Shown one piece after another: positions 47,153 through 48,855 of a stretch of 64,000 nt of DNA; the stretch's first letter is position 1, and each line of letters starts with the position of its first letter. This DNA is from Bacteroidota bacterium (lineage in GTDB: Bacteria > Bacteroidota > Ignavibacteria > Ignavibacteriales > Ignavibacteriaceae), in contig JAIUOE010000004.1 of NCBI GenBank assembly GCA_020161395.1, positions 62,001 to 126,000 of the forward strand, written 5' to 3'. A program made the position numbers and the translations under genes. Under the pieces are notes generated by a model that saw only the letters and a list, made by a program, of their open reading frames with translations, was not told the DNA's origin and made no database searches.

Positions 47153-48001
47153 ATGGCATGGTTTAAAAGGAAAAAAGATAACATCGCTCCCGAAACAAAT
47201 CCAAAGGAAAACATGCCTGATGGACTGTGGGAGAAGTGTACCGATTGTGGTGAAATTATGCACAAAAAACAGCTTGAGAATAATCTCTGGACCTGTATAA
47301 AGTGTAATTACCATTTCAGAATAGGAAGCGCAGAATATTTTAAATTGCTGCTCGATGAAGGTACCTTCAAGGAGTACGACAAAAAAATGAAATCTGCCGA
47401 TCCTCTCAAGTTCGAGGATTCAAAAAAATATACTCAAAGAATAGAGAGCACAATCAAAGCCACGGGTCTTCAGGATGCTGTCAGAACCGGTATTGGGAAA
47501 ATTCTTGGCAAAGAGGTTGTGATCGGTTGTATGGACTTTAAGTTTATTGGTGGCTCCATGGGTTCTGTAGTCGGAGAAAAACTCGCACGGGCTGCGCACA
47601 AGGCATTAAAAAACAAATGTCCGCTGATTATTATCAGTTCAAGCGGTGGTGCCAGAATGATGGAAGGAGCTCTTTCATTGATGCAGATGGCAAAAACAAG
47701 TGCAAGACTAGCCCAACTGGCAGATGCCAAAATTCCGTACATCTCTGTTGTAACTGATCCTACGACAGGTGGAACGACCGCGAGCTATGCAATGCTGGGT
47801 GATGTGATTGTGGCGGAACCCAATGCTCTGATTGGTTTTGCCGGTCCAAGAGTAATTAAACAAACAATTGGCAAGGACCTTCCGGCCGGTTTTCAGAAAT
47901 CCGAGTTTGTTCAGGAGCACGGATTTGTTGATATGATATCACACAGAAAAGAACTCCGTCAGACACTTTCGACAATTTTAGACTTTCTTCAAGTGAGGTA
48001 A
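47153..48001 (+). CDS. accD: Acetyl-CoA carboxylase carboxyltransferase subunit beta
   Basis: A 282-residue protein. An N-terminal zinc ribbon (CTDCGE ... CIKCNYHF) precedes the crotonase-like carboxyltransferase core with [42 protein letters not shown] and [13 protein letters not shown]. It transfers the carboxyl group from biotin to acetyl-CoA with AccA in fatty acid synthesis. accA is not in the window. The GAGG at its end probably serves as ribosome site for panC. Confidence 0.96.
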
Positions 48002-48003
48002 TC

Positions 48004-48855
48004 ATCAGGATCGTCAACCACATAAAGGAAATGCAGGCAATCTCCTCCGCTCTGACAAAGGAGGGGAAGTCTATTGGTTTTGTTCCAACCATGGGTTATT
48101 TGCACAGCGGGCATATGTCACTTGTGCAAAAATCAAAGGCAGAAAATTCTGTCACGGTTGTATCCATTTTTGTAAATCCGACACAGTTTGGTCCAAATGA
48201 AGACCTCTCCAAATATCCCCGGGATTTCAAGAAAGATGAGTCACTTTTGAACGAAGCGGGTGTAGATTTTGTATTTTATCCCGAAAGTTCTGAGATATAC
48301 CCGGATGGTTTCGAAACATTTGTGGTCCAGGAAAAGATATCCTCCCGGCTTGAAGGGGAGTTCCGGCCGACTCATTTCAGAGGAGTTACCACTATTGTCT
48401 CAATCCTGTTTAACGCCGTAAAACCCCACCGGGCATATTTTGGTCAGAAAGATGCCCAACAGTGCGCTGTTCTAAACAGAATGGTAAAAGATCTGGCTAT
48501 CGATCTTGAGATGATAATATGTCCAATTGTGCGCGAACCCGACGGACTTGCTATGAGTTCGAGGAATGTTTATTTGTCGGAAACCGAACGGCAAGATGCT
48601 TTGGTGTTATCACGATCTTTAAAATTGGCTTCTGAATTAATTTCGGGAGGGGAGACTTCAGTATCAAAAATTAAAGAAAATGCAACCTCACTTTACGCCA
48701 AGGTTGAGTCTGCATCTCTTGACTACTTTGAGATTGTGGAATTTGATTCTTGTCAATCCGCAGAAAAACTGGGTAAAGGCAAAAAATATTTTATTCTCGT
48801 TGCCTGTAGGATCGGGAAAACAAGATTGATTGACAACTACCTGATACAGGTATAA
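48004..48855 (+). CDS. panC: Pantothenate synthetase, probably starting at an ATC codon
   Basis: The enzyme condenses pantoate and beta-alanine with ATP. It shows FVPTMGYLHSGHMSLV, IFVNPTQFGPNEDLSKYPRD, FRGVTTIVSILFN, YFGQKDAQQCAVL and the KMSKS-like MSSRNVYLS. The first ATG (48031) comes after the family's first beta strand. The same frame upstream reads IRIVNHIKE, without ATG, GTG or TTG. Starting at the ATC at 48004 makes the length 283 and puts the conserved segment at residue 25, as in E. coli PanC; a GAGG site lies 5 nt before it. A sequencing error or a truncated start at 48031 remains possible. Confidence 0.9.
   Translation: MRIVNHIKEMQAISSALTKEGKSIGFVPTMGYLHSGHMSLVQKSKAENSVTVVSIFVNPTQFGPNEDLSKYPRDFKKDESLLNEAGVDFVFYPESSEIYPDGFETFVVQEKISSRLEGEFRPTHFRGVTTIVSILFNAVKPHRAYFGQKDAQQCAVLNRMVKDLAIDLEMIICPIVREPDGLAMSSRNVYLSETERQDALVLSRSLKLASELISGGETSVSKIKENATSLYAKVESASLDYFEIVEFDSCQSAEKLGKGKKYFILVACRIGKTRLIDNYLIQV

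Follow-up and report, generated by a model that had tools for sequence, protein, structure and literature searches.

Where does translation of panC begin when its reading frame offers no conventional start codon at the expected place? The question arises in a window of 64,000 nucleotides (the whole stretch of DNA analysed here, from an Ignavibacteriaceae genome), in which panC, the gene for pantoate--beta-alanine ligase, lies directly behind accD (Table 1). The first-pass annotation had noted that ATG, GTG and TTG (hereafter canonical codons) are missing from the panC frame ahead of ATG48031, back to the region of the accD stop; they are missing all the way from the upstream in-frame TGA. The sequence leading to that ATG is agt GAG Gta atc ATC agg atc gtc aac cac ata aag gaa ATG, with in-frame ATC codons at 48001, 48004 and 48010. 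That annotation placed the start at ATC48004 and took GAGG as its Shine–Dalgarno (SD) sequence, a proposal now supported by a comparison over 23 genera, by 15 genomes with no canonical codon before the active-site motif and by the alignment of residue 1 with the beginning of the TIGR00018 profile. We use AUH for AUC, AUU or AUA and count the codon at 48004, or its counterpart in relatives, as codon 1.

Table 1. Features around the accD–panC junction, numbered from the first nucleotide of the window
Feature	Position	Strand	Basis or remark
accD, acetyl-CoA carboxylase carboxyltransferase beta subunit	47153..48001	+	ORF; TIGR00515; directly upstream of panC
In-frame TGA, upstream bound of the panC frame	47929..47931	+	read in the sequence
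Shine–Dalgarno GAGG	47995..47998	+	5 nt before AUC48004
accD stop TAA	47999-48001	+	separates the SD from the start of panC here
Tandem AUC, disfavoured alternative start	48001..48003	+	2 nt from GAGG
Putative AUC start codon of panC	48004..48006	+	homology, spacing, conservation among relatives
panC, pantoate--beta-alanine ligase, 283 aa	48004..48855	+	PF02569, TIGR00018, PDB PanC chains, model
First in-frame ATG, residue 10, rejected start	48031..48033	+	relatives, motif, SD spacing
VPTMG motif, residues 27-31, anchor for aligning starts	48082..48096	+	conserved in PanC

The accD gene ends ...caa gtg agg TAA, and its product matches TIGR00515 (8.9e-119) with residues 1-280 aligned to profile positions 1-280. 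Since two ATC codons stand in tandem at 48001 and 48004, it is spacing and homology, not the sequence alone, that pick the second. The spacing from GAGG to AUC48004 is the commonest among relatives, in agreement with the earlier judgement that this SD is well placed. The AAGGA at 48025-48029 had been thought too near ATG48031 to serve it, and only one base does separate the two.

The protein itself points to the same codon. Read from AUC48004, PanC matches PF02569 (5.2e-106) and, over its full length, TIGR00018 (9.4e-99, 329.9 bits against a curated cut-off of 212.75), with residues 1-281 on positions 1-282 of the 283 in the profile and residue 1 on position 1. The catalytic motifs are present, P28 T29 M30 G31 (PTMG) and HxGH being invariant in 38 aligned PanC sequences. 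In comparisons with PDB chains, residues 2 and 16 fall on the residues of the same number in 2ejc and 1iho, respectively, so that, with the TIGR00018 alignment, AUC48004 occupies the place of Met1 in known PanC. One detail of the first-pass annotation needs correction: the F of FVPTMG, which it had put at residue 25, is residue 26 counted from 48004. An AlphaFold2 model built from 38 sequences (pLDDT 91.2) predicts a strand at residues 2-4, a helix at 7-19 and a second strand at 24-29. A start at ATG48031 is predicted from this model to delete strand 2-4, the loss of the first beta strand that had been foreseen, together with the first turn of helix 7-19.

Translation from ATG48031, which would yield a PanC without its first nine residues, is what a start predictor restricted to canonical codons would choose, and an ATG stands at codon 10 in 21 of the 42 AUH relatives described below. 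We nevertheless consider it very unlikely. Residues 2-9 are conserved and align from residue 1 or 2 of known PanC, the modelled truncation costs a strand and part of a helix, AAGGA lies only 1 nt ahead of this ATG whereas GAGG and AUH are conserved, and 15 of the 42 AUH relatives have no canonical codon ahead of VPTMG.

These relatives come from a survey of 97 genomes, 72 with a panC match and 25 without, in which all 72 starts were read; G329, found in a search of the class, brings the panC loci of the order to 73. In 52 of them accD, called by tblastn with the window accD, lies directly upstream. The comparison of relatives' N-termini and start codons, which the first-pass annotation had itself put forward as a check, gives AUH at codon 1 in 42 of these 52 accD-linked loci, a canonical start in nine and one ambiguous case (L160, classed so because a UUG lies before its SD). 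None of the 42 has a canonical codon from the in-frame stop to codon 3. Their start codons (24 AUC, 15 AUU, 3 AUA) are spread over 23 genera in two families, 20 in family f1 (38 loci) and three in family f3 (4 loci). The panC loci that do not follow accD are canonical without exception (21 of 21).

Several features of the 42 AUH loci single out codon 1. A codon one base off AUG is found there in every locus, compared with 8, 2, 5 and 5 loci at codons 0, -1, -2 and -3; codon 0, the place of the tandem AUC in the window, is thus near-cognate in only 8 of 42. An in-frame stop lies no more than five codons upstream in 33 loci, so few candidate starts exist. Residue conservation sets in directly after codon 1, with K or R at position 2 in 34 of the 42 and I, V or L at position 4 in all of them. 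In the 15 loci (10 genera) that have no canonical codon before VPTMG, the first usable Met falls inside the motif, and a non-AUG start is therefore obligatory there. That a sequencing or assembly error erased an ATG from the window has virtually no chance of being true, since G003, a near-identical but separate genome, has the same ATC ATC and 42 genomes show the pattern. With no canonical start that would preserve the protein, AUH at a constant place in most accD-linked orthologues and a strong, well-spaced SD, the comparison strongly supports initiation at ATC48004, with GAGG as the SD, rather than at ATG48031.

The SD and the start codon vary together. Of the 42 AUH panC genes, 41 have GAGG or GGAG at a distance of 5-7 nt from codon 1 (the lone exception, L143, carries only TTAGG), compared with one of the nine canonical accD-linked ones (Fisher 1.2e-7). 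That one is G026, in which GAGG is kept with an AUG start, and among the 43 accD-linked loci with the SD at codon 1 (41 AUH, L160 and G026) it alone has AUG. G001, which belongs to the window's own genus, has ATG and an altered SD, and in genus g20 GAGG is lost and an ATG lies four codons upstream of codon 1. As far as comparison can, these counts demonstrate the position of the start, its conservation and a trade-off between strong SD and start codon in accD-linked panC. SD-led initiation operates in the host genome (G000), to judge from the 16S-tail-like GGATCACCTCCTTT at G000:C5:339754-339767, beside tRNA-Ile and tRNA-Ala genes, from CACCTCCTTT, likewise 16S-tail-like and present in the genome, and from SD-like tetramers, which precede 129 of 351 first canonical codons compared with 17-44 when the count is made at five shifted positions. 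Folding energies around the start gave no strong signal of a conserved RNA structure in the 42 loci, with a mean z of -0.63 (-3.6 to 1.6) against mononucleotide shuffles.

In 34 of the 42 AUH loci the accD stop lies within the SD and reads UGAGG, at -10 in 28 and at -11 in six; the 28 include L005, whose anchor was one codon off and which was adjusted by hand to GAGG at 5 nt and an accD stop at -10. The window and G003 have TAA at -5, and in the four f3 loci the accD stops are at -25, -60, -71 and -99. The overlap is therefore not universal, and the AUH start does not depend on close coupling. The same stops bear on the idea that programmed frameshifting at the end of accD, or readthrough of its stop, yields PanC as an AccD–PanC fusion. 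A +1 frameshift at a stop has a precedent in prfB, and the phase of the accD stop would let a +1 step enter the panC frame in 30 of 42 loci. The accD stops nevertheless take up each of the three possible phases with respect to panC (30, 9 and 3 of 42, the window being among the 9), the f3 loci L011, L021 and L167 have a stop in the panC frame between the accD end and AUH, and the accD stop of L017 is itself in the panC frame, all of which makes a fusion exceedingly unlikely.

Outside the order the panC starts read are canonical. A search of the class matched 337 of 391 genomes, and all 47 panC loci read from its other families (the 30 best-scoring and 17 picked to represent one family each) carry a canonical codon somewhere from codon -9 to codon +5. 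A scan of genome contigs gave similar results for its best 80 panC loci, of which 78 could be read (L084, on a cut contig, and L105, with no motif, were unusable): 76 are canonical, and both of the others, L033 and L035, come from Ignavibacteria records. Nor was pathway-wide use of AUH found: in the stretch from the in-frame stop to the profile start, a canonical codon is available in 30 of 30 panB loci read and in 25 of 25 panD loci, two G002 fragments (L340 and L341) among the 27 panD loci having been set aside.

Most of the panC loci of the order that are not linked to accD represent a second type of the gene (19 of 21; L162-L166 and L170-L183, with 14 in f2 and five in f1). These have ATG starts and frames of about 253-270 aa, in which the match to the window PanC is confined to roughly its first 210 residues. 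The second type stands behind panB in the six genomes in which both were located (G011, G063, G067, G069, G072 and G076), and panD is nearby in four genomes. G021, G028, G042 and other near-complete genomes of the order have no PF02569 match; G021 is also without a panB or panD match, a gene content that suggests pantothenate auxotrophy.

The order also permits a comparison with infC, which has AUH behind an SD-like tetramer (mostly AGAGG) and no canonical codon in 23 of the 30 loci read (20 AUC, 2 AUU and 1 AUA, the AUU of L208 being doubtful, as it lies at the very start of the domain). In the window's genus, all four genomes (L222, at G000:C4:51188 on the + strand, L221, L204 and L205) have a UUG option for infC and no AUH with an SD, and the classic AUH start of infC seems, from these sequences, to have been lost there. 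The AUH starts of panC and infC are not co-inherited: G000 and G003 combine AUH panC with the UUG option for infC, and the f2 genomes G073, G074 and G075 show the reverse, AUC infC with canonical panC. The two thus do not regularly share a genome, as a consistency check for IF3-repressed genes, though not a defining one, would have it, and this counts against a strict IF3 circuit for panC.

A census of G000 (351 predicted genes on 430 kb) identified 11 sites at which AUH follows an SD, two of them those of panC. Pfam matches begin downstream of the first canonical codon in six of the other nine ORFs, in which AUH is unneeded; one has no Pfam match, and in the remaining two, YegS/DAGK-like and PdaC-like, the match already starts ahead of the AUH as well as of the canonical codon. 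Within this census, panC is the only case upheld by homology. In the stop-to-stop frame of the YegS/diacylglycerol-kinase-like gene (L236:10800-11711; G000:C4:135800-136711, +), DAGK_cat begins at residue 9 and no canonical codon occurs before residue 75, CTG codons near the beginning of the frame being possible starts. The other ORF (L233:1519-2121; G000:C4:20519-21121, -), with PdaC and DUF3298 and a match beginning upstream of its first canonical codon, may have either a frameshift or a non-canonical start.

The corresponding census of G004 (307 predicted genes) gave five sites at four genes. Besides panC and infC, the latter serving as a positive control, these are an hpnC-like gene whose codon is AUA and a gene with two sites, at C1:287211 and 287217. 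AUH with an SD was rare in both censuses. In the squalene synthase HpnC gene of G004 (L345:4240-5090; G004:C1:62090, -) the AUA is preceded by TAGAGG, and the first canonical codon comes 115 codons later. Of 30 hpnC loci read from other relatives, 28 offer a canonical codon, and two have neither a canonical codon nor AUH with an SD upstream of the profile start; the AUA of the G004 gene is therefore not a conserved trait. An odd initiator tRNA was considered and, within the loci covered, set aside: ARAGORN, applied to 30 loci drawn from 44 places with tRNAs, identified three different CAU Met tRNAs and a single GAU Ile.

Codon 1 of panC is used differently from ordinary Ile codons, as far as codon counts can tell. 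AUC accounts for 57% of the starts (24 of 42) and for 18% of the Ile codons (95 of 537) in the bodies of 23 full-length AUH panC genes, and AUA for 3 of 42 and 138 of 537; for AUC/AUU/AUA as a whole (24/15/3 vs 95/304/138) the chi-square p is 5e-9, a value too small because the loci are related. We placed the starts on a tree of 60 rows (30 full-length loci of the 73 in the order and 30 outgroup loci), made with a quick method with SH-aLRT only and from order rows without their first 20 residues. The three AUH codons interchange at least eight times on the tree of the order's 30 rows. The AUH label itself requires four changes, at least two of them forced by starred branches, compared with a mean of 18.6 for shuffled labels. 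This fits a single origin of AUH near the base of the order's accD-linked panC, followed by several returns to AUG, on a tree whose deep branches are unsettled and leave AUH gain and loss indistinguishable.

We interpret the start of panC as attenuated, SD-driven initiation that usually adjoins accD termination and is sensitive to IF3, and put the probability of this reading at about 0.8. The ordinary initiator fMet-tRNA would read the near-cognate AUC48004, positioned by GAGG at 5 nt. In vitro, codon bases one and two need Watson–Crick pairs while weaker pairs pass at base three (PMC10158994), a tolerance that bears on AUH because AUH varies at base three only. In most AUH relatives UGAGG-N5/6-AUH would set ribosomes or 30S subunits that are ending accD beside the panC start, and panC would be a low set-point gene served mainly by ribosomes finishing accD. 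What is observed here is the architecture, and from it we infer that panC translation may be coupled to that of accD.

The weak start codon would keep PanC synthesis at a fraction of the AUG level. Attenuation by the AUC start is to be expected by analogy with S. aureus reporters, in which output from AUA and AUU was about 10% of that from AUG in poor medium, and for ccpN up to 30% in rich medium (PMC13009471). IF3 rejects such codons, and the start is presumably sensitive to it as well: when AUU was read by a CAU initiator, the full-length share went down to 31% at 1.5 uM IF3 (PMC10158994), and in Streptomyces sigR-rsrA IF3 repression of a non-canonical start sets stoichiometry (PMC5472188). 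Overproduction of IF3 lowers reinitiation at AUG without an SD (PMC2268962), a finding by which the strength of the SD would be important to an AUH start that is coupled. That the non-AUG start of panC means regulation is plausible by analogy; IF3 level or growth state as the signal in use is speculative.

AUH might instead be a neutral, tolerated degeneration of the start without regulatory meaning, the strong SD and the nearness of accD making the codon unimportant and little PanC being needed. Nine of the 52 accD-linked panC genes are canonical, which makes AUH dispensable; its lack of co-inheritance with AUH infC is in keeping with neutrality, as is the general trend for the SD to compensate weaker starts in GUG and UUG genes (PMC5622118). 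Neutrality is harder to reconcile with the solitary AUG of G026 among SD-bearing accD-linked loci in which AUC, AUU and AUA interchange repeatedly, a pattern that hints at selection for a weak start codon where the SD is strong. We regard it as possible but doubtful. The attenuated, SD-driven start remains our preferred reading, and it can be set beside systems already described.

In E. coli pcnB, studied by Binns and Masters in 2002, an AUU start reportedly limits the amount of enzyme; it is another gene in another lineage. Like panC, infC, the gene of IF3 autoregulation, has an AUH codon with an SD, mostly AUC in this order too, whereas panC encodes a biosynthetic enzyme with no autoregulatory loop and mostly abuts accD. 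The earlier statement that AUU and AUC starts belong to few genes (infC and pcnB) holds for their rarity among the cases we encountered, but its list was short: published examples include S. aureus ccpN (AUA), cvfC1 (AUU) and citZ (AUA) (PMC13009471) and, with GTC, sigR (PMC5472188). The S. aureus genes share the AUH start with panC, and ccpN and cvfC1 also a strong SD and conservation; their starts were shown by ribosome profiling and reporters, that of panC is known by comparison only (PMC13009471). Streptomyces sigR resembles panC in its non-canonical start, strong SD and operon and differs in having GTC instead of AUH and in having been tested by IF3 mutants and codon swaps (PMC5472188). 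Termination–reinitiation at adjoining genes likewise places the downstream start beside the upstream stop (PMC2268962), while in panC the stop lies mostly inside the SD and the start is AUH. No report of a non-AUG start of panC was found by title or abstract in the literature searched, which comprised open-licence PMC papers and leaves absence unproven. Non-AUG starts with a strong SD are already known, and the panC case adds conservation and the overlap of stop and SD.

The described bacterial AUH starts that we encountered are few and mostly regulatory (infC, ccpN), and panC adds a metabolic gene, with an AUH start kept over 23 genera in two families and a matching SD trade-off. By implication, panC of these genomes would come out too short or misplaced with any gene caller that accepts canonical codons alone. 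Similar genes might be sought as profile matches reaching upstream of the first canonical codon, combined with an SD and AUH. The proposed mechanism predicts a measurable PanC set-point. A further step, that panC and infC read the same initiation-fidelity signal and that CoA synthesis is gated by the IF3:ribosome ratio and, via the stop in the SD, by accD translation, seems to us improbable; if true, it would tie CoA supply to translation capacity and fatty-acid synthesis in these bacteria.
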